The notes under the pieces: model-generated
Database searches by the model: none
Told to the model about the DNA's origin: nothing
What the model saw: only the letters and a program-made list of their open reading frames with translations
Made by a program: the position numbers and the translations under genes
Shown here: positions 22,527 to 37,058 of the stretch, one piece after another
Numbering within the stretch: the stretch's first letter is position 1
Layout of the letters: each line of letters opens with the position of its first letter
From: a virus
DNA: 41,280 nt
IMG/VR virus record: IMGVR_UViG_3300024290_000008
Location: 1 to 41,280 of that record
Direction: 5' to 3' (one strand)

Positions 22527-23203
22527 TGGGCCTGATCTGGAATGCGACGTTCGAGAACAACAACGCCAGCGAACTGTCGGCGGCGCTGACGGCTGGCTTC
22601 ACGATCTCGTCCGCTCAGGCAGACGCGAGCACGTACTCGCTGAAAGTGGATAGCACGGCTGCGGTGGGTGCAGAAACTATTCTTAAGGATGGACTGAATT
22701 ACTACACCATCTTTTCGCGCTGCCGACTCTACGTGGACCACCTATCCACGCCCGGGGTGATACGCGATGCGCCATTTCTAGTGTGGCGTGACCAGTCAGA
22801 TAACGTAATCGCCTATGTACTTCACAGAGCTCTAACGACTGGTTTTGGCGGACACCGCTTGTTCATCGTGAACCAAATAGGTGGGACCTTTACCTCAGAG
22901 TTGGGTTTCAACGCGGCAGAGTGGACCACTATTGAAACCAAGTTAGTGATCTCTCCGACGGTGGGCCTCTTTCAACTACGATTTGTGTCTGCAGGGATAG
23001 TATTCACTTCCACATTGTCTGCGCAGGACACAGGGACGTCTCCAGTCAAGAGTCTGAGAAATGCAGGCGGCGGCTTCACGGAATTTCAAATCTACACCGA
23101 CAACTGGCGGGTGCTCGACAACATTTATCCAGGTGACGGCGAGCCGATCGCCCCACGGAACAACCTTCGACCGCGCGCCTTCGCACCGGGGTTGGCTCGG
23201 TGA
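22526..23203 (+). CDS. lectin-like fibre protein with atypical base composition
   Basis: 225 residues; ATG overlaps the upstream TAA. Begins MGLIWNATFENNNASELSAA, and later VDSTAAVGAETILKDGLNYY and WTTIETKLVISPTVGLFQLR, a concanavalin/LamG-like jelly roll as in receptor-binding proteins. From about 22640 to 23110 codons often end in A or T, quite unlike the flanks, which suggests recent gain by recombination. The end returns to high GC. Confidence 0.65.
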   Translation: MGLIWNATFENNNASELSAALTAGFTISSAQADASTYSLKVDSTAAVGAETILKDGLNYYTIFSRCRLYVDHLSTPGVIRDAPFLVWRDQSDNVIAYVLHRALTTGFGGHRLFIVNQIGGTFTSELGFNAAEWTTIETKLVISPTVGLFQLRFVSAGIVFTSTLSAQDTGTSPVKSLRNAGGGFTEFQIYTDNWRVLDNIYPGDGEPIAPRNNLRPRAFAPGLAR

Positions 23204-25050
23204 GCTTCAAGGCACTCCGATCGCCGCGTATCGCCAACACGCTCGGGAACCCGCGCGATGTCTCGGGCTCACTGGCCTCCAGCCTGGAGGACATGGCACT
23301 CTCCGCCGTGGCCACGGTGGCGATTGCGGCCACGCTGGCAGCGACACTCGGTGCGGCGACGCTCTCGGCTGCTGGCACTGTCAGCGTTAGTGGCACCGAA
23401 GCCTCGACCCTCGGCGCGGTCACGAGCGCGGCGGCGGGCACGGTCTCCGTCTCCGGGACGCTGGCGAAGACCCTGGACGCGGCGACGGCGAGCGCGGCGG
23501 GCACCGTCAGCGTCTCGGGGACCCTTGCCTCGACGCTCGACCCCGCGACGCTGAGCGCCGCAGGCGCGGCGAGCGTCAGCGCGTCGCTGGCCGCGACCCT
23601 CGACGCCCTGACCCTGTCCGGCGCAGGGACGGTCGAGGCGGGAGCGGACAACGGGACGCTCGCCGTCACCCTGGACGCCCTCACGCTGGCCGGGGCGGGC
23701 ACGGCGGACGTCGCGGCGACCCTCGCGAAGACCCTGGACGCGGCGACCCTCGCGGCGGCGGGCTCCGTCTCGGTCTCCGCGAGCCTCGGCTCGACCCTCG
23801 ACGCCCTGACGCTCGGCGGGGCGGGGACCGTCTCGGTCACGGGCACCGAGGCGTCGACGCTCGCCCCCGTCACGCTGAGCGCCGCCGGGTCCTCGGCGGT
23901 CGCCGGGACCCTGGCGAAGACCCTCGACGCCCTGACCCTGGCGGGGACGGGCACCGCGTCCGTCTCGGGGACCGAGTCCTCGACGCTGGACGCCCTGACG
24001 GCGGCGGGGGCCGGTACGGTCTCCGTCTCCGCGACCCTCGCGAAGACTCTCGACGCGGCCACGCTCAGCGCCTCGGGGTCGGCCAGCGTGACGGGGACGC
24101 TCGCCGCGACCCTCGCCCCGGCCACGCTCGCCGGGACCGGGGCGGCGGCGGTCTCCGCGACGCTGGCCTCCACGCTCGACCCGGCGACCCTGGCGGCGTC
24201 AGGAGCGGCAGGCGTGGCGGGAAGCCTGTCCGCGACCCTGGACCCGCTGGCGGGCTCCGGGGCGGGTGTCGTCGCGGTCTCGGGGTCCCTGGCCCGGACC
24301 CTCGACGCGGCCACGGCGTCCGGGGCGGGCACGGTCTCCGTCAGTGCGAGCCTCGCGGCGACCCTCGACCCGGTCACCCTCGGCGGGGCTGGGACGACGG
24401 GGGTCGTCGGGTCGCTGGCCGTCACGCTCGCCCCGGTGACGTCGAGCGCCGCCGCCGCCGCTGCGGTCGCGGGCGCGCTCGCCTCGACCCTGGACCCGGC
24501 GACGGCGTCGTCGTCCGGGGCCGTCGCAGTCGCCGGGACGCTGGCGACGACGCTGGACCCCCTGACGCTCGCCGCGTCCGGGTCGACGACGACGGCCGTC
24601 TCGGGGACGCTCGACGTCACCCTCGACCCGCTGACGGCCCAGGGCGCGGCAGCGGCCGGGGTCGCCGGGACGCTGGCCGCGACGCTCGACCCGCTGACGG
24701 GGGCGGGCGCGGGGACGGAGGACGTCGGGGCGTCGCTCGACGTCGCGCTGGCCCCGGTCGACGCCGCCGGAGCCGGGACGGTCTCGGTCTCCGGCGCGCT
24801 GGACCGCGACCTGGACCCGCTGACCTGCGACAGCGCCGCCGACCTCGCCGTCGTCGGGTCGCTCGCGGTGGACCTGGACCCGCTGACGTGCGACGCTACG
24901 GGCAGCGTCTCGTCCGTCTCGACGATCGACCTCACGGCGTCGGAGGTCCGGGTCCTCGTCCTGTCGGCGTCAGAGCGGCGCGTGATCGACCTGTCGGCGT
25001 CCGAGGTTCGCGTGATCGAGTTGCTGGGGAGCACCGAGGGCGAGGAGTAG
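23200..25050 (+). CDS. repeat-built tail fibre or surface protein
   Basis: 616 residues from GTG 23200 (GTGA overlap). After about 30 residues it consists of some 26 copies of a unit near 21 residues: TLDAATLSAAGTVSVSGTLA and variants, made almost only of A, G, S, T, V, L and D. Each unit would give short beta strands, so a beta-solenoid or stacked-repeat shaft is likely. The C-terminus changes to a shorter repeat (LSASEVRVIEL-like). The DNA repeats make length change by recombination likely. Confidence 0.65.
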   Translation: MSFKALRSPRIANTLGNPRDVSGSLASSLEDMALSAVATVAIAATLAATLGAATLSAAGTVSVSGTEASTLGAVTSAAAGTVSVSGTLAKTLDAATASAAGTVSVSGTLASTLDPATLSAAGAASVSASLAATLDALTLSGAGTVEAGADNGTLAVTLDALTLAGAGTADVAATLAKTLDAATLAAAGSVSVSASLGSTLDALTLGGAGTVSVTGTEASTLAPVTLSAAGSSAVAGTLAKTLDALTLAGTGTASVSGTESSTLDALTAAGAGTVSVSATLAKTLDAATLSASGSASVTGTLAATLAPATLAGTGAAAVSATLASTLDPATLAASGAAGVAGSLSATLDPLAGSGAGVVAVSGSLARTLDAATASGAGTVSVSASLAATLDPVTLGGAGTTGVVGSLAVTLAPVTSSAAAAAAVAGALASTLDPATASSSGAVAVAGTLATTLDPLTLAASGSTTTAVSGTLDVTLDPLTAQGAAAAGVAGTLAATLDPLTGAGAGTEDVGASLDVALAPVDAAGAGTVSVSGALDRDLDPLTCDSAADLAVVGSLAVDLDPLTCDATGSVSSVSTIDLTASEVRVLVLSASERRVIDLSASEVRVIELLGSTEGEE

Positions 25051-25467: not shown

Positions 25468-25974
25468 ATGCCCGGCTACATCCCGCACGGCATGTGCCTG
25501 CTCTGGGAGCCTTGGCTCCTCTGGCTGACGGTCGCGGCGGACCTCGTCATCGGGGCGTCCTACATGCTGGCGATCAGCCCGGTCCTCGTGCTGCTCCGTC
25601 GTCGGGAGTACGGGGCGCTCCGCTGGTTCTTCTACTGGTTCGCGGCCTTCATCGCGCTGTGCGGACTGACCCACTTCGACGACGTCCTGAACGTCTGGGT
25701 CCCGGCCTACTGGTACGCGATGGTCGTCAAGGTGTGCACGGCCCTCGTCTCCGCGACGACGGCGGGCCTGCTGATCCGGCACCGCCGCGCGATCGCGGAC
25801 TACCCGACCCCAGCGGAGTTGGCCATGAAGAACGAACGACTCCAGCACGACGCGGACGCGCTGCGGAAGGCCATGACGGTCCTCGGGACCGAGTACGCGA
25901 TCAAGGCCAAGCACCTGGAGGGGATCGCGAGCATCGTCTCCCGGCTGGAGGCACTGTCGGAGCGTGCCTCGTGA
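25468..25974 (+). CDS. ethylene-receptor-like three-helix membrane sensor domain with coiled coil
   Basis: 168 residues. Three membrane helices (about 17-43, 52-73, 80-102) open with PHGMCLLWEPWLLWL, as in bacterial histidine kinases with an ethylene-receptor-type N-terminus. Without gaps it lines up with plant ETR1: Asp25, Tyr32, Ile62, Cys65 and His69 fall at the same numbers (AAFIALCGLTHFDD); Cys65 and His69 are the copper ligands there. Ile35 and Pro36 of ETR1 are changed. A coiled coil (107-168) follows and the protein ends without kinase. The next gene, a PAS protein, overlaps by 4 nt. Role in the phage unknown: signal decoy, receptor or modified holin are options. Confidence 0.75.
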   Translation: MPGYIPHGMCLLWEPWLLWLTVAADLVIGASYMLAISPVLVLLRRREYGALRWFFYWFAAFIALCGLTHFDDVLNVWVPAYWYAMVVKVCTALVSATTAGLLIRHRRAIADYPTPAELAMKNERLQHDADALRKAMTVLGTEYAIKAKHLEGIASIVSRLEALSERAS

Positions 25975-26429
25975 ACGTGATCCAGCGCGCCGAGCTCCAG
26001 CAGCAGCTCCGGGACTCGGTCCAGGAGATCCGGCAGGCCGAGATCCAGACGGCCGCGCGGATCGCGGCGATCGGCAAGCATCTGGTCGCCGTCGAGGGCG
26101 TCATCTCCGTCGACGTGGAGTCGCGGATCGTCTTCGCGGACGACGTCATGCACAAGATCGCCGGGTACACGCCCCCGGCGCTCCAGGGACGCCCGCTGAC
26201 CGACCTCCTCGGGGAGACCCACCGGGACGCCTACCTCCAGATCCTCAAGGACTACGTCGAGAGCGGCGAGATGTCCCGGAGCTGGGAGGGTCCCCTGGTC
26301 TTCCCCCTGCGGTGCGCGGACGGGTCCGAGCGGCCAATGATCCTACGGGCAAGCCAACAGGAGGCGCTCGGGCGACATATCCTGCTGCTGCAACTCCGCC
26401 CCATCGGGACGGCCAGTGAGCCCACATGA
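25971..26429 (+). CDS. stand-alone PAS domain protein
   Basis: 152 residues from GTG 25971, overlapping the sensor gene stop. An N-terminal coiled coil (about 1-40, LQQQLRDSVQEIRQAEIQ) is followed by a PAS fold (about 43-146): GVISVDVESRIVFADDVMHK, IAGYTPPALQGRPLTDLLGE, then FPLRCADGSERPMILRASQQ. In bacterial kinases a PAS domain often follows the ethylene-receptor-type membrane domain and coil, so this pair looks like one sensor split into two genes, lacking the kinase. It may pair with the preceding protein through the coils (inference). Confidence 0.75.
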   Translation: MNVIQRAELQQQLRDSVQEIRQAEIQTAARIAAIGKHLVAVEGVISVDVESRIVFADDVMHKIAGYTPPALQGRPLTDLLGETHRDAYLQILKDYVESGEMSRSWEGPLVFPLRCADGSERPMILRASQQEALGRHILLLQLRPIGTASEPT

Positions 26430-26718
26430 CCCGCTGCAGCAGGACGGGGTCTGGACGAAGTTCGCGGAGCTGGTCGTCCGGCAGACCGAGTCCAACAACC
26501 GCCGCATCGACGCCCTGGAGACCCCGAAGGGGTTCTCGGGGGAGTGGTCCCGGTTCCTCATCGGGCTCGCCATCTCGGCGCTGCTCGCCTGGGGCGTCGT
26601 CCAGGCGAAGCTCGCCGTCTACGAGACCCAGATGGGGTACGCGCTGGAGCGCATCGGGCAGCTGGAGTCCCTCGTCCGGGACCTCACGCGCGAGATCGAC
26701 CGCTACCACGGGAAGTGA
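26416..26718 (+). CDS. single-span membrane protein with coiled coil (holin- or spanin-like)
   Basis: 100 residues from GTG 26416, overlapping the PAS gene by 14 nt. About 44 soluble residues, one membrane helix (FLIGLAISALLAWGVVQAKL, about 47-66) and a C-terminal coiled coil (RIGQLESLVRDLTREIDR). Such proteins are common just before phage lysozymes and may be holin partners, XhlA-like proteins or inner-membrane spanins. An ATG at 26426 opens a shadow frame and is rejected. Confidence 0.6.
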   Translation: MSPHDPLQQDGVWTKFAELVVRQTESNNRRIDALETPKGFSGEWSRFLIGLAISALLAWGVVQAKLAVYETQMGYALERIGQLESLVRDLTREIDRYHGK

Positions 26719-26744
26719 ACCCTGAGCCGAAAGGACCTGACGCC

Positions 26745-26900
26745 ATGCTGCTCATCCTGGTCGTGATCCTCCTCGTCCTGCTCCTCGGCGGCGGCGGGGG
26801 CTACTACGTCGGCGGGCCGCAGGCCGGGCTCGGGGGCCTCGGGCTCGTGCTCCTGGTTCTCCTGCTGCTGTTCCTGCTGGGCGTCATCCCGAGGCGCTGA
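26745..26900 (+). CDS. 51-residue two-span membrane protein, DUF3309-like, holin candidate
   Basis: Starts at ATG with AAAGGA upstream. Two very hydrophobic helices (LLILVVILLVLLLGG and GLVLLVLLLLFLLGVI) are joined by a Gly-rich turn (GGGGGYYVGGPQAGLGG), ending with basic residues. This matches the small DUF3309 type of membrane proteins. Placed directly before the lysozyme, it is a good holin candidate. Confidence 0.65.
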   Translation: MLLILVVILLVLLLGGGGGYYVGGPQAGLGGLGLVLLVLLLLFLLGVIPRR

Positions 26901-26905
26901 TCGCC

Positions 26906-27361
26906 ATGAACCTGGACCGCCTGAAGACGAAGCTCGACGCCGCCGAGGCCCGCCGGGTCCGCGTCTACGACGACCGGACGGGGAAGGACATCGTCCCAGG
27001 GACGCTGGTCCAGGGGCACCCGACGATCGGCGTCGGGCGCGCGCTCGACGTGAACGGCCTGTCGGGCGACGAGATCGAGTTCCTGCTCGACAACGACATC
27101 CGGCGGCGGCAGGCGGAGATCCTCCGCGCGCTCCCGTGGTGGTCGACGCTCGACGACGTCCGGCAGGAGGTCGTCTTCGAGATGGAGTTCCAGACGGGCC
27201 TCGGCGGGCTCCTGGGGTTCCACGACGCGCTCTCCCACATGAAGGCGGGTCGGTTCGAGGACGCCGCGCGCGAGATGCTCGACAGCCACGTCGCGCGCGA
27301 CGTTGCGCCCGGTCGGTGGCGACGGATGGCCGAGGAGATGCGGACAGGGGTGTCAGCATGA
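26906..27361 (+). CDS. endolysin, T4-type lysozyme (GH24)
   Basis: 151 residues. Catalytic pattern E14 ... D23 ... T40, with the same E-to-D spacing (9) as T4 lysozyme: AAEARRVRVYDD then GHPTIGVGRALD. The C-terminal lobe shows VVFEMEFQTGLGGLLGFHDA and ARDVAPGRWRRMAEEM, typical for GH24. It cleaves the MurNAc-GlcNAc bond of peptidoglycan. An insertion of about 8 residues separates D23 from the TIGVG motif compared with T4. No signal peptide, so it needs a holin. Stop overlaps the next ATG. Confidence 0.85.
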   Translation: MNLDRLKTKLDAAEARRVRVYDDRTGKDIVPGTLVQGHPTIGVGRALDVNGLSGDEIEFLLDNDIRRRQAEILRALPWWSTLDDVRQEVVFEMEFQTGLGGLLGFHDALSHMKAGRFEDAAREMLDSHVARDVAPGRWRRMAEEMRTGVSA

Positions 27362-29058
27362 CGCGCTTCGGGGAGTCGACGGTCCTGGACGACGGGCGGC
27401 TCGTCGTCGCGCCCTGGGCCAAGCGGGGCGTCTACATCGGGGAGACGTTCTTCGACGGGCCGCAGATCCGGTTCCCGGACGCGGGGATCGACGCCCTCGG
27501 CCGGGTCTGGGTCATCGGCAAGGACCAGGAGGGCAAGGGGGCGTTCGTCCTCTGCGACGCCGTCGGGCTCTGGTGGCCCGTGACGATGACGGTCGGGGGC
27601 TGGCCGGTCGCCCCGACGGTCTACGGGAGTCGGACGATCCTGCGCGCCGACGGCGAGGGCTGTCGGATCGCCTTCACGGTCAGCGCCGTCGAGTGGCGCT
27701 GCCTAGCGGTCCGGTGCGAGGGGACGCGCGTCGAGATGGCCGAGGTCGGGCGCGGGACCATCGCGAGCGGGGAGGGCGGGAACGGGATGCGGGACTGGGA
27801 CCCCGACGGGAACCCTCGGCCCGTCATGCCGCTCGACGAGCGGGTCGCTGGGCATCTCCTCAGGATGCACGTCACGGCGGGCGACGTCGCGATCGGGAGC
27901 GCCCTGGACCTCGACGGGGCCGTCGTCCTGCTCAAGGGCGGGGCGGTCGGGACGCTCCTCCAGAGCGGCTCGAACCACGAGACGCTCCGGCTCTCCCCGA
28001 ACGGGCGGCACTGGACCGGGATCCAGTACGTCGGGTCCCGGATGGTCGGCGGCGACGTCCCGGATGCGGTCCCCCCGCTGGTCACGGTCACGAAGATCGC
28101 GCCCTTCAAGACGCGGGCGCACGTCGGCTGCTTCTTCGCGGACTCGAAGCGGTACCAGACGGACCCCCCGGCTCCGGGCTCGGTCTCCGTCCTGGTCGAG
28201 GAGCGGCTCGCCTCGTCGCGCGGGGTCGTCCTGGCGCGACTCTCCGACGAGACGAACGTCGACCTGCTGGCCGAGTGGCGCGGGCGCTGGGCCCAGGTCC
28301 GGGGCATCTACGTCACGTCTGAGCGTGGGCCCCTGCGGGCGGAGGCGGCTGCGGCCAGGGCCCGCATGTCGTCGCTCGGCGTCGCGCTGCGGCCGGTGAT
28401 CTCCTACACCGGGCCGACGCTCCCGGCCGACCTGTCCGGGATCGACGTCGTCGGGGTGGAGTGGTACCTGAAGACCGACGGGGAGACGGTCCAGCAGGCC
28501 GAGCCACGGTGGCGGGCCCAGATCTCGCTGGCCGGGGGCAAGCCGCTCGCGCCGATGCTCGGGATGTTCGACCGCACGGGTCAGGTCTCGGAGGCGCTCT
28601 GGGGCGCGTGTCTGCCCCGCTACGAGGCGCTCCTCCGCGAGCTGGGCGACCGGGTCCGGTTCGTCCTCGGCTTCTCTTGGGGCCGTCCGGGGGGCCTGAG
28701 GGACCATCCGGCGCTCCGCCCGTGGATGGCGGCGCTCGCGGGGGCCTACACGCCGCCGTCCTCGGCGCAGCCGGACCCGCCGCTCGTCACGATCACGGAC
28801 TACAATCCGCAGGCCGGGGCGCATCCCCTGACGGTCCGGGCCGTCCGGGCGCTCAGCGGCGGACCGGCGACGACGCTGACGTGGCGGATGCGGCGGGAGG
28901 GCGCGACGGACTGGACGCCGGTCGCCGTCAACCCGGCCACCGACCCGGACCACAGCTTCGTCTTCCCCTCGGCGGGCAGCTACGAGATCGGGGTCGACGT
29001 CGTCGGCCCTGGCGGCAGCAACGGCACGGTCACTCCACGGAAGGTGAGGGTCTCATGA
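27358..29058 (+). CDS. large multidomain protein with C-terminal PKD-like domain
   Basis: 566 residues; ATG overlaps lysozyme stop. The N-terminal 280 residues carry repeated short beta sheets (LDDGRLVVAPWAKRGVYIGE; IDALGRVWVIGKD), possibly a propeller. The middle (about 300-460) has alternating strands and helices, with WAQVRGIYVTSE, PVISYTGP and IDVVGVEWYLKTDG, resembling a TIM-barrel glycosidase but without a clear catalytic pair. The last 90 residues look like a PKD/Ig fold (FPSAGSYEIGVDVVGPGGSN). Probably virion-associated or secreted and sugar-binding. Confidence 0.6.
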   Translation: MTRFGESTVLDDGRLVVAPWAKRGVYIGETFFDGPQIRFPDAGIDALGRVWVIGKDQEGKGAFVLCDAVGLWWPVTMTVGGWPVAPTVYGSRTILRADGEGCRIAFTVSAVEWRCLAVRCEGTRVEMAEVGRGTIASGEGGNGMRDWDPDGNPRPVMPLDERVAGHLLRMHVTAGDVAIGSALDLDGAVVLLKGGAVGTLLQSGSNHETLRLSPNGRHWTGIQYVGSRMVGGDVPDAVPPLVTVTKIAPFKTRAHVGCFFADSKRYQTDPPAPGSVSVLVEERLASSRGVVLARLSDETNVDLLAEWRGRWAQVRGIYVTSERGPLRAEAAAARARMSSLGVALRPVISYTGPTLPADLSGIDVVGVEWYLKTDGETVQQAEPRWRAQISLAGGKPLAPMLGMFDRTGQVSEALWGACLPRYEALLRELGDRVRFVLGFSWGRPGGLRDHPALRPWMAALAGAYTPPSSAQPDPPLVTITDYNPQAGAHPLTVRAVRALSGGPATTLTWRMRREGATDWTPVAVNPATDPDHSFVFPSAGSYEIGVDVVGPGGSNGTVTPRKVRVS

Positions 29059-30575
29059 CGGCGCGCGCATCCCTGGTCCTCCTGATCGCCACCCTGTCGG
29101 CCTGCGGCACGCACATCGCGCCCAGGCCGACGCCGACGCCAGCGCCCTCGACGCTCGACGTTGCGAAGGCGACGGCCACGTGCGAGCGGATCTGGCAAGA
29201 GGAGCTGCTCCGCCCGATCGACCGGGGGCCCGGCTCCGGGCTGGACGGCTGTCTCCAGGAGCAGCGCGGAGGGCGTGGGGAGGCCCAGATCCGGGCCGAG
29301 GTCAAGGCGAGCAAGGAGTGGGCCGAGGTCCATCGGCCGAAGCCGGTCCCGACCGTCCGCCCGGGGCGCGTCTTCCTCTGCGGGGACCACGGGCTCTGCG
29401 ACGGGGCGGGGCGGCACTACTACGGCGGGGTCAACATCTTCTGGGCCGCGTGGGGGCTGAAGAACGACAAGGTGCGCCTCGACGCGGCGCTCCAGGACGT
29501 CGCCCCCGGGAAGCACGACCTCGCGCGGGTCTTCGGGCACATCACGGGCCCGTCGCCCTGGTGGGACGACCGGCACCACGACCTGACGCAGCCCGGGGCC
29601 GTCGACAACCTCGGCGCGACGATGGACTACCTCCGGGCGTCCGGGCTCCGGACGTGGCTCGTCGTCTTCGCGGACGTCTCCTACTCGAAGCCGGTCCGGT
29701 CGACGATCGTCGACAACGTGATCGCGATACTGCGGTCCCGGCTGGACGAGACCTTCCTCGTCGAGATCGTCAACGAGGGGCTCGCGCTGAAGCCGACCCC
29801 GTTCCCCCTCGCGGAGGCCCAGGAGTACGCCAGTCGGATCAAGGCGGCGTTCCCGGCGACCCTGGTCGTCGTCACGTCCCCGGCGAGCGAGTCCTGCGCG
29901 GACCTCCGGGCCGTCTCGGTCGGGGACCTGTCGGCCCCGCACTACTCGCGGTCGACGTCCGGCACCAAGGGGGTCTGGACGCCGTCGACGCAGCCCTGGA
30001 TGGGCGACACCCAGCCCCGGTTCTGCGGCGGGCGCGTGACCCTGGACGGGGAGTCGATCGGGATCGGGTCGAGCGTCAACTCTGACAACGACCCGGTACG
30101 GCTGGCGATGGCGCGCGCGGTCGGCGCGGGGGCGGGGAACACGGGGGACATCCTCCAGAGCGCCGCCGGGGTCTACGGGCGGGTCGCGTTCAAGGACCAG
30201 CCGGGGTTCATGGAGGCCCAGGAGGCGGTCCGGCAGATGCGGGCGCTCATCAACACGAAGCCGGACCTCGCGGACTGGAGCCGGGGCAAGTCGACCGACG
30301 GGCCCTGGGGCGTCCGGGACTTCCCGGTCGACAAGCTCGGGATCAAGGGGACGCTCTCCCGGTTCTACTGCGCCTGGAGGGGCCAGGACTCCTGGTGCGC
30401 GGCCCTGGACGTCCGGGCGACGACGACGCTGACCGCGAAGGGCGGGGTCGCCGTCTCGGTCCGGCCCGGGCAGGCGGCGCTCACCGAGGTCGACGGGCGA
30501 CGCCTGTCGGCGGGCCAGTCCTTCACCCTGACGCCCGCCACGCCGGGGGCCGTCGTCATCGGGAGCGCCCCGTAG
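29055..30575 (+). CDS. lipoprotein with TIM-barrel glycosidase-like domain
   Basis: 506 residues; ATG overlaps upstream stop. N-terminus MTARASLVLLIATLSACGTH ends in a lipobox (LSAC) with lipidated Cys, then a Pro/Thr linker. The central domain has barrel strands RTWLVVFADVS, FLVEIVNEGLAL with likely acid/base Glu241, LVVVTSPA, and VTLDGESIGIG with possible nucleophile Glu333. A C-terminal beta domain (about 425-506) follows. It suggests a phage-made glycan hydrolase anchored to the host envelope. Substrate unknown. Confidence 0.7.
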   Translation: MTARASLVLLIATLSACGTHIAPRPTPTPAPSTLDVAKATATCERIWQEELLRPIDRGPGSGLDGCLQEQRGGRGEAQIRAEVKASKEWAEVHRPKPVPTVRPGRVFLCGDHGLCDGAGRHYYGGVNIFWAAWGLKNDKVRLDAALQDVAPGKHDLARVFGHITGPSPWWDDRHHDLTQPGAVDNLGATMDYLRASGLRTWLVVFADVSYSKPVRSTIVDNVIAILRSRLDETFLVEIVNEGLALKPTPFPLAEAQEYASRIKAAFPATLVVVTSPASESCADLRAVSVGDLSAPHYSRSTSGTKGVWTPSTQPWMGDTQPRFCGGRVTLDGESIGIGSSVNSDNDPVRLAMARAVGAGAGNTGDILQSAAGVYGRVAFKDQPGFMEAQEAVRQMRALINTKPDLADWSRGKSTDGPWGVRDFPVDKLGIKGTLSRFYCAWRGQDSWCAALDVRATTTLTAKGGVAVSVRPGQAALTEVDGRRLSAGQSFTLTPATPGAVVIGSAP

Positions 30576-34828: not shown

Positions 34829-35149
34829 ATGCCGCGGATCATCTACCCTGAAGTCCGGACGGTCACCGAGGAGTGGGTCGTGGGACAGGCCCACGACCTC
34901 CTCGTTAACGACGCGCTCGAAGCCGAAGCCCTCAGGGTCGGCGCGGAGAACGTCCCCGACGGCTACTGGCCGGAGATCGCCCGCCCGTCCTACGACGAGG
35001 CGTACGAGATCCTCGCGGACTCCGGGGTCGTCACCTTCGCGAGCGACGACCTGGACGACGCGCGGTTCTGCGAGATGTCCGCCGAAGACTGGCGCGAGGT
35101 CGAGGCCGACCACGCGCTCGACGACGACCGGCTTGACGACCGCGATTGA
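34829..35149 (+). CDS. small acidic protein, partner of the duplicated tail
   Basis: 106 residues: MPRIIYPEVRTVTEEWVVGQ ... YDEAYEILADSGVVTFASDD, ending EMSAEDWREVEADHALDDDR then LDDRD, the same C-terminus as the gene at 34341. Stop TGA lies inside promoter element 4. Function unknown. Confidence 0.55.
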   Translation: MPRIIYPEVRTVTEEWVVGQAHDLLVNDALEAEALRVGAENVPDGYWPEIARPSYDEAYEILADSGVVTFASDDLDDARFCEMSAEDWREVEADHALDDDRLDDRD

Positions 35150-35174
35150 CATACAGACTCGTTTGACATACAAT
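35146..35174 (+). promoter_or_regulatory. tandem TTGACATACA promoter element 4
   Basis: TTGACA 35146 and TACAAT 35169, 17-bp spacer, second TTGACA 35163. ATG 35182 is 7 nt after the -10: leaderless. Confidence 0.75.
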
Positions 35175-35181
35175 CCAGAAC

Positions 35182-35445
35182 ATGACGATCGCGACCCACT
35201 TCATCCGACACACCGACGCCCGGGGGCACCAGTCAGGGCTCCCGGACGAGCCGCTCTGCGACGCCCACCTGACCGAGGCCCCGGCGCGCTACGGGCTGAC
35301 CCTCCGGGGGAACCGGCTGGTCTCCTCGCGCGGCCGGACCTCGGGGTTCGTGCACCGGCTCGCGGCCGACCGAACCATCCCGTGCGAGCGGTGCGAGCTG
35401 GCGACGATGCCCGCGATCCTCTCGGCCGACGACCTCCCGTTCTGA
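35182..35445 (+). CDS. small zinc-finger-like protein from a leaderless transcript
   Basis: 87 residues. Possible zinc ligands in LCDAHL and IPCERCEL, separated by a basic stretch (GNRLVSSRGRTSGFVHRLAA). No SD; ATG at the expected transcription start. First gene before the AAA+ ATPase, 38 nt away. May bind nucleic acid; unproven. Confidence 0.55.
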   Translation: MTIATHFIRHTDARGHQSGLPDEPLCDAHLTEAPARYGLTLRGNRLVSSRGRTSGFVHRLAADRTIPCERCELATMPAILSADDLPF

Positions 35446-35483
35446 TACGGTTCACAGACCAGCGACGACAAGGAGCCATAACG

Positions 35484-37058
35484 ATGACCCAGACCTCACA
35501 GCGCGACGCGCTCGACCTGTTCTCCCGCTACCGGTCGGTGGCGACCCCGCTGCTTGCCTACACGACCCCGGACGCCCCGGCGAGCCAGCTCGCGATCCAG
35601 GATCAGCTCCAGAAGGACGACGCGACGGACTTCCCGGGCGAGCCGAAGTCCCCGGTCCTCGCCTACGACGTGATCCGGGGCCTGACCTTCGTCAACGAGG
35701 AGGGGAAGCAGGCGCTCAAGGCGATGGGCGTCGCCCCCGGCGGGATCCTGAACCCGGCCTCCGTCCTGGAGACGCTCGCGGCGAAGGCCCCGCCCCGGAC
35801 GCTGACCTTCTTCCACAACGCGCACCTGTTCTGGACCGGCCCGGACAAGGCGCAGTTCCTCCAGGGCGTCCTGAACTGCCGGGAGCCGTTCAAGACGAAC
35901 TGGCGGACCCTGGTCCTGTTCCAGTTCGGCGGGGCGGTCCCGATGGAGCTGGAGCGCGACGTCGTCCCGATCGAGGAGGCGCTGCCGACCCGCGAGGTCC
36001 TCGCGGAGAAGGTCCAGTCGCTCCTGAAGGCCGGGAAGCTCGACCCGGCCGACGAGCCGACCCTGGAGAAGGCGACCTCCGCCCTCGCGGGCCTCTCCCT
36101 GTTCGCGGCCGAGCAGGTCACGTCGGTCTCCCTGCGGACGACCGGGATCGACATCGAGTCCATGCGCGACCGGGCGCGGCACCAGATCCGGATGACCCCG
36201 GGGCTCTCCGTCGAGGACGGCGGGCAGACCTTCGAGGGGCTCGGCGGGCTGTCGAACATCAAGCGGTTCTGCTCGCTCATCCGGCACGGCGAGGAGCCCC
36301 CGAACCTGATCGTCTTCATGGACGAGATCGAGAAGCAGATCGGCGGGGCGAACGACCTGTCCGGGATCTCGACCTACTATATCGGCCAGATCCTCCAGGA
36401 GATGGCGGACACCAAGGCGACCGGGTTCATCTCCTACGGTCAGCCCGGGACCGGGAAGACGGAGATCGCCAAGGCCCTCGCGCGGGAGCTGGACTCGTTC
36501 GTCATCCGGATCGACCTCGGGAAGATGAAGGACAAGCTCCAGGGCCAGTCCGAGGCACGGCTGAACGCGGCCCTCCGGGTCATCCGGGCCGTCGGGCAGG
36601 GGCGGGTCACCTGGAACGCGACCTCGAACGGGCTGACGAACCTCCCCGGCGAGCTCAAGTCCAGGTTCTCGCTCGGGACGTTCTTCTTCGACCTCCCCAC
36701 GGCCGAGGAACGGGCGTCGATCTGGAAGATCCACGAGGCCGCATGGCACCTGACGCCGGAGCACCTGAAGGCGCGCCCGGACGACACGGACTGGACCGGC
36801 CGCGAGATCTACTCCTGCTGCCGGAACGCCTACCGGCTCCGGCTGACGCTGCGGGAGGCGGCGGAGTTCATCGTCCCGATCGCCCGGTCGGACATGGAGA
36901 CGATCACGCTGCGTCGGCGGGAGGCGCACGGGCGGTACATCAGCGCCTCGTACCCGGGGACGTACCGGGCCCCGGGCCTGAAGACGGAGGAGGCCGAGGC
37001 CGAGGTCCTGGTCCCGGCGCGCGCGATGCGGTCCCTCGGGAAGCTGAAGGAGTCGTAA
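35484..37058 (+). CDS. AAA+ ATPase, Ycf46-like, Walker B placed before Walker A
   Basis: 524 residues; SD AAGGAG at 35470-35475. N-terminal domain of about 240 residues, then FEGLGGLSNIKRFCSLI. A Walker B-like LIVFMDEIEK (D280, E281) precedes Walker A GQPGTGKT (319-326; K325). Then RIDLGKMKDKLQGQSEARLN, sensor-1-type Asn382 (NATSNG), Arg394 finger-like (KSRFSLG) and FFFDLPTAEERASIWKIHEA. In ordinary Ycf46/FtsH-type AAA+ proteins the DEIEK block follows the GESEAR block, so here the domain is rearranged. With the next two genes it forms a known phage cassette. Likely remodels a protein or nucleoprotein target; unknown which. Confidence 0.8.
   Translation: MTQTSQRDALDLFSRYRSVATPLLAYTTPDAPASQLAIQDQLQKDDATDFPGEPKSPVLAYDVIRGLTFVNEEGKQALKAMGVAPGGILNPASVLETLAAKAPPRTLTFFHNAHLFWTGPDKAQFLQGVLNCREPFKTNWRTLVLFQFGGAVPMELERDVVPIEEALPTREVLAEKVQSLLKAGKLDPADEPTLEKATSALAGLSLFAAEQVTSVSLRTTGIDIESMRDRARHQIRMTPGLSVEDGGQTFEGLGGLSNIKRFCSLIRHGEEPPNLIVFMDEIEKQIGGANDLSGISTYYIGQILQEMADTKATGFISYGQPGTGKTEIAKALARELDSFVIRIDLGKMKDKLQGQSEARLNAALRVIRAVGQGRVTWNATSNGLTNLPGELKSRFSLGTFFFDLPTAEERASIWKIHEAAWHLTPEHLKARPDDTDWTGREIYSCCRNAYRLRLTLREAAEFIVPIARSDMETITLRRREAHGRYISASYPGTYRAPGLKTEEAEAEVLVPARAMRSLGKLKES

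Follow-up and report, generated by a model that had tools for sequence, protein, structure and literature searches.

Why would a phage carry the membrane sensor domain of an ethylene receptor, with no kinase attached, just ahead of its lysis genes? The question is raised by a locus in the 41,280-base IMG/VR virus record IMGVR_UViG_3300024290_000008, the whole of which was analyzed and is called the window here. The window encodes tailed-phage proteins, including a scaffold, head-tail adaptor, tail completion protein, major tail protein and a 1959-residue tape measure. Further genes recorded in it were one at 23200-25050 for a 616-residue protein whose degenerate, SVSGTLAATLDPATLSAAGT-like repeats are each about 20-30 residues long, with a 652-residue mirror open frame on the opposite strand; one for a 508-residue protein at 29049-30575 with an apparent lipoprotein signal and, by eye, a glycoside hydrolase-like stretch, which had no Pfam match and is odd content for a phage; and one for a 641-residue protein at 35133-37058 in which Pfam recognized an AAA ATPase core (AAA, 3.4e-11).

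The window protein is a free-standing ETR1_N domain

The gene at 25468..25974 (+ strand, ATG start, TGA stop) encodes a 168-residue protein that matched the ETR1_N family (Pfam PF25487) with an E value of 1.3e-22 and 80.3 bits against a cut-off of 27. An AlphaFold2 model built from a 27-row alignment placed helices at residues 15-45, 49-77 and 81-104 followed by a 53-residue coil (115-167), with a mean pLDDT of 92.8, in agreement with the three-helix ethylene-binding fold proposed in a preliminary description of the locus. Charges flanking the helices fit an N-out/C-in orientation, a topology drawn from charges alone with the three helices taken from AlphaFold2. No useful match for the fold was obtained among solved structures, and the protein matched no holin family in PHROGs or Pfam.

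The protein was aligned with ETR1. It retains C10, D25, Y32, I62, C65, G66, H69 and K88 (equivalent to ETR1 K91), and the copper ligands Cys65 and His69 are in register with those of ETR1. The preliminary description had reported a gap-free alignment with Asp25, Tyr32, Ile62, Cys65 and His69, both copper ligands among them, at the same numbers as in ETR1; the numbering was borne out by the alignment and residue table, whereas the full-length alignment contained gaps. ETR1 depends on seven residues to bind ethylene (D25, Y32, I35, P36, I62, C65 and H69; PMC6586836, PMC11819568), which are reported by Wang et al. (2006) as well. Five of them are present in the window protein, which falls short of the full set by the loss of I35 and P36 (the local sequence is A35-I36-S37-P38). 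By profile match, the window gene encodes a true ETR1_N domain, of the membrane sensor class.

The sensor gene heads a five-gene lysis block

Five same-strand genes, arranged head to tail, span positions 25468-27361 and encode in order the ETR protein, a PAS protein, a one-TM coil protein, a two-TM protein and a lysozyme. The sensor gene is preceded by a Shine-Dalgarno-like AGGAG, and its stop codon shares 4 bp (GTGA) with the start of the next gene (25971..26429, + strand, GTG start, TGA stop), which encodes a 152-residue protein with an N-terminal coil and a PAS domain (PF00989, E = 3e-7; sensory_box TIGR00229, E = 3.4e-8). Codon-position GC was 0.63/0.46/0.94 for the ETR gene and 0.73/0.42/0.92 for the PAS gene, close to the values of the tape-measure gene, suggesting that both are real genes. 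The end of the PAS gene is overlapped by a third gene (26416..26718, +) for a 100-residue protein in which a hydropathy scan found a single TM segment, at about 48-66, alongside a charged coiled coil, and for which Pfam and PHROGs gave no family match. The fourth gene (26745..26900, +) encodes a 51-residue, weakly DUF3309-like protein with two TM segments by profile and hydropathy scan, a candidate small holin. The block closes with a T4-type lysozyme of 151 residues (26906..27361, +), which matched T4 lysozyme chains with an E value of about 2e-9 (phmmer) and a PHROG endolysin at 5.4e-5. Its alignment to T4 lysozyme begins at residue 14, and no TM or signal segment was found ahead of the lysozyme fold; since the enzyme shows no export segment of its own, some product of the block probably lets it out.

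These results uphold the coordinates of the sensor-PAS pair (25468-26429, by reading-frame ends and start and stop codons), its coupling to the lysis genes, and the reading of a sensor chain that ends after the coil with an overlapping gene supplying coil plus PAS and no kinase, as given in the preliminary description. A kinase domain was absent by Pfam from the genes at 25468 and 25971 and from the later block genes scanned. No phage homologue of the PAS protein was found. Plasmid relatives were considered and turned out to be generic PAS proteins only. In a comparison with FixL by eye, the PAS protein appeared to have no histidine at the heme position.

Kinase-less ETR1_N proteins recur in unrelated phages

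We compared the window with 50,697 phage records by tblastn and scanned IMG/VR with a pattern requiring C65 and H69. The tblastn search matched only Maribacter phages Molly and Colly, where the proteins are annotated 'hypothetical protein'. Colly1_63 (QQO97348.1) has 289 residues and is ETR1_N by profile (3e-16); its best structure match in BFVD was A0A8E4UZR7, of the same length (289 residues; E 2e-4). An AlphaFold2 model of the Molly protein was good over the ETR1_N part and poor over a low-confidence, beta-rich C-terminus. The gene order in both phages is 1TM coil-ETR-amidase endolysin. The pattern scan of IMG/VR returned 14 loci, with seven free-standing lineages: L008, L012, L013, L014, L015, L016 (L017 encodes the same 128-residue protein and was counted with it) and L020. 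Together with the window and Molly/Colly, these make nine free-standing phage lineages. L019, where ETR lies about 24 kb from the nearest lysozyme, was counted apart, and L026, on a 350 kb contig, was left out of the phage count for the bacterial neighbors of its ETR locus. That the contigs of L008, L012, L014, L015, L016 and L020 and the 245-kb L010 contig belong to phages is confirmed by their terminase genes. The recurrence of a kinase-less, free-standing ETR1_N in unrelated phages is the new result of this work.

Longer receptor-type proteins were found on the contigs of L009 (= L010), L011 and L021. In L010 (5974-7445; IMGVR_UViG_3300045256_000050, 245 kb; the region is identical in L009) a complete ETR1_N-HisKA-HATPase kinase gene overlaps a response regulator gene; this viral contig, as large as a jumbo-phage genome and bearing a terminase gene, encodes a whole ethylene-receptor-type two-component system. 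In L011 (5950-7065; IMGVR_UViG_3300001199_000001, 279 kb) an ETR1_N-HWE kinase gene overlaps the next gene, whose product is ParB-like by eye. L019 (5965-6657) encodes a 231-residue protein in which an ETR1_N with all seven binding residues is followed by a stretch like a histidine-kinase dimerisation helix, with no ATPase domain; it is a possible decoy.

Two features recur in the gene neighborhoods of the phage copies. A profile-recognized endolysin or holin lay within about 2 kb of ETR in five of the nine lineages, where 1.1 were expected (P about 0.002, under a rough null of one lysis locus per contig and a 2 kb limit, both set after the loci had been seen), and eight of nine had a small protein with one TM segment, in most cases also a coiled coil, adjoining ETR or two genes off. 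The orders were amidase-ETR-coil/TM in L014; Phage_holin_4_1-ETR-coil in L015; N-acetylmuramidase, lipoprotein, 2TM, ETR and TM coil in L013; ETR-TM coil-3TM-lipoprotein in L012; ETR-TM coil in L008; terminase-ETR-TM coil-portal in L016; and ETR-1TM in L020. Stop and start codons of neighboring genes overlapped by 1-4 bp in the window, L008, L012, L014, L015 and Colly. For the one-TM partner, the charges that follow the TM segment are consistent with an N-out/C-in orientation in five loci (L008, L012, L013, L016 and Colly); the window protein of this kind comes after PAS rather than directly after ETR, and its charges do not point clearly to one orientation. No profile-recognized lysis enzyme was found near ETR in L008, L012, L016 or L020. 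Other holin or holin-like genes were present in some loci, namely a recognizable holin in L015 and holin-like TM genes in L012, L013 and the window. A reading of L012 6190-6624 as a peptidase-M15 was unsupported by a profile check, and a search for endolysin families over whole contigs yielded little, its first-look filter having missed even the known L014 amidase. The L013 block also holds genes for a ParE-type toxin and a putative helix-turn-helix antitoxin between muramidase and ETR (1527-2222, - strand).

The pairing with PAS did not recur: among the phage relatives searched, ETR+PAS was found nowhere outside the window. The preliminary description had tied its proposal to persistence of Cys65/His69 and of the gene pair in relatives; both residues were present in every tabulated relative, the ETR+PAS pair was unique, and what recurs in other phages is ETR1_N with a small one-TM/coil protein. 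When close relatives of the window, L014, L015 and L016 proteins were sought in IMG/VR, nothing came back beyond these contigs themselves and the L016/L017 pair, and a C-terminal alignment lacked any stretch conserved enough for scanning. In a tree of ETR1_N sequences, 10 of 36 inner branches were well supported and many branches were long; the phage copies did not form one clade, with at least two changes forced, and the placement of any single phage row is unsafe.

The copper site is conserved and the ethylene pocket drifts

We next compared residues across the free-standing phage lineages and receptor-type copies. C10, Y32, I62, C65, G66 and H69 were present in all nine phage lineages. For C65 and H69 this is circular in L013, L015, L016 and L020, where the scan pattern demanded both, and not circular in the other five (the window, Molly, which was found by tblastn, L008, L012 and L014); L008, L012 and L014 were also recovered by an N-terminal pattern that ignored C65/H69, and L008 and L012 by a helix-3 DNA pattern as well. 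D25 was N or G in five lineages (L013, L014, L015, L020 and Molly), P36 was missing from six and the helix-3 lysine from five, whereas D25, P36 and K91 were kept in all 16 receptor-type sequences compared (14 cell-genome and two viral-contig kinase copies). All seven ETR1 binding residues were kept in L008, L012 and L019. At the level of sequence, the phage copies keep the copper site while ethylene-pocket and output positions drift.

Cellular relatives are mostly kinases, and some are split

The 17 nearest genome relatives were alphaproteobacterial, with ETR1_N inside frames of 308-489 residues. The one near relative scanned, L038, combines ETR1_N with an HWE kinase and has no PAS match. AzoEtr1 of Azospirillum does have PAS (PMC11819568). 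The preliminary description had ascribed a coiled coil, PAS and kinase to bacterial histidine kinases of this type, an architecture of which L038 lacks the PAS match. ETR1_N occurred in 20 of 289 alphaproteobacterial genomes, mostly in kinase-sized frames. Among small-frame cases, a free-standing ETR1_N gene immediately precedes that of a membrane histidine kinase in L056, L057 and L058. It overlaps the kinase gene in L056 (3893-6776) and in L057 (3891-6485), where the kinase is dCache-like, and the partner in L058 (3896-5775) is a CHASE3 kinase. Two other small frames were rejected, L055 as broken from a kinase frame and L059 as a frame at the edge of its contig that contains an internal stop. 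Splitting of ETR1_N is thus a cellular habit too and not phage-specific; the phages stand out by the lack of a kinase and by the lysis genes in the neighborhood.

A proposed role for the sensor domain in the lysis module

We hypothesize, at roughly even odds, that ETR is a copper-type membrane sensor recruited into the phage lysis module as a holin-like or lysis-timing part. Its recurrence beside lysis genes and its LysF1a/LysF1b-like anatomy (see below) favor such a role. Phage lysis timing responds to membrane energy. In the proposed scheme, an ETR1_N sensor domain would have lost its histidine kinase and joined the lysis module. The 168-residue protein would sit in the inner membrane with three helices N-out/C-in, as lambda S105 and other type I holins do, would dimerize through helices 1-2 and could hold Cu(I) at C65/H69, a site that may be a sensing or a structural element. 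Its cytoplasmic coil may contact the coil of the co-translated PAS protein, that of the one-TM protein, or both, and together they could time lysis in the manner of a holin or an antiholin. The trigger would be a change either in the PAS domain or at the membrane site, where copper, redox state, membrane energy or a small hydrophobic ligand might be read, and the resulting shift in assembly would let the lysozyme reach the cell wall. Control by ETR of the 51-residue two-TM protein or another holin is slightly more likely than ETR itself forming the hole. In favor of a lysis role are the recurrent lysis-block position, the one-TM coil partners, the start/stop overlaps and the relaxed D25/P36/K91; against it are the absence of a holin-family match, a PAS partner found only here and the presence of another holin in L015 and of holin-like genes in L012, L013 and the window, beside which ETR may be an accessory. 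That unrelated phages independently took up a kinase-free copper sensor domain as a lysis switch reading copper, redox or a membrane-soluble signal is a more tentative proposition, which we hold to be doubtful.

A kinase-less decoy or modulator would account for the locus differently: the phage ETR, with PAS, would dimerize with a host ETR-type kinase or replace the subunit of a host split receptor, and the position beside lysis genes would be incidental, that of a late-operon moron. The bacterial split receptors suggest that a free ETR1_N subunit could be swapped in trans, the window protein keeps K88 and D25, phage proteins targeting two-component systems exist, such as PIT4 (PMC10714779), and the large viral contigs of L009/L010 and L011 carry whole ETR kinases. 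This reading is nevertheless unlikely, and less likely than a part in the lysis module, given the recurrent lysis-block position, the relaxed output residues in most phage copies and a recurring partner that is a membrane coil protein, not PAS; moreover, an ETR1_N target was present in only 20 of the 289 alphaproteobacterial genomes. Of the options raised in the preliminary description, a lysis-module part, holin-like or gating, fits the recurrence best, and the decoy gained no specific support. We think it similarly improbable that ETR serves superinfection exclusion or is another membrane moron with no part in sensing or lysis, in which ETR1_N would be no more than a scaffold of three helices. 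Exclusion or moron roles are common among phage membrane proteins this small, and the phage copies are orphans and very divergent, but a scaffold needs no invariant C10, Y32, I62, C65, G66 and H69 at 20-40% identity, nor does it explain the recurrence in lysis blocks.

A true ethylene or olefin receptor that times lysis in plant- or alga-associated hosts would fit the retention of C65, H69, D25, Y32 and I62 in the window and of all seven residues in L008, L012 and L019, and the bacterial AzoEtr1 and SynEtr1 can bind ethylene (PMC11819568). We regard it as quite unlikely. The window lacks I35 and P36, each of which is needed in ETR1, and D25, whose loss abolishes ethylene binding in ETR1 (PMC11819568), is N or G in L013, L014, L015, L020 and Molly. 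Ethylene sensing is weakened as an explanation by these losses in the window and by the relaxed D25/P36/K91 in most phage copies; nor is a kinase or receiver output linked to the sensor in 25468, 25971 or the later block genes scanned.

If the lysis-module reading is true, the lysis decision gains a chemical input and the ethylene-receptor fold a kinase-free role, and, since Maribacter phages Molly and Colly are in culture, the idea can be tested directly. A limited literature search found no lysis protein that carries a domain for sensing a ligand or a metal and no paper joining phages with the ethylene-binding domain, an absence that is no proof of novelty.

Comparison with known systems

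The ETR1_N domains of ETR1, SynEtr1 and AzoEtr1 share with the window protein three TM helices, Cys65/His69, Asp25, Tyr32, Ile62, the helix-3 lysine and a cytoplasmic coil after helix 3. The window protein differs from them in being free-standing in a phage lysis block, with no kinase in the chain and with I35/P36 lost. The bacterial split operons (L056-L058) likewise place a free ETR1_N gene before a membrane partner gene; their partners carry HisKA/HATPase, whereas the phage partner is a small membrane coil protein, or coil plus PAS in the window. Colly1_63 is also a free-standing ETR1_N with a one-TM coil gene and an amidase endolysin adjoining, and differs from the window protein in its length of 289 residues with an extra C-terminal part, in D25N and P36S and in having no PAS gene. 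In the paper describing Molly, the amidase is the only lysis gene named, and no holin is named (PMC8776804).

Type I holins have three TM helices in an N-out/C-in orientation (PMC9671378). The ETR1 fold presumably has this arrangement as well. The window protein resembles those of lambda (S105) and P2 (Y) in its three TM helices, likely N-out/C-in, and in its adjoining endolysin, and its setting is that of a type I holin, a lysis cassette whose endolysin shows no export signal; it differs in having no holin-family sequence match and in its conserved metal-type site. In F1 mycobacteriophages, the multi-TM LysF1a is followed by an ATGA-overlapping gene for LysF1b, a one-TM N-out/C-in charged helical protein, and efficient lysis needs both (PMC13056207). 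The phage ETR pairs have a similar anatomy, a multi-TM protein with a one-TM charged helical protein in the lysis cassette, although LysF1a contains only two TM helices and its description makes no mention of ETR1_N.
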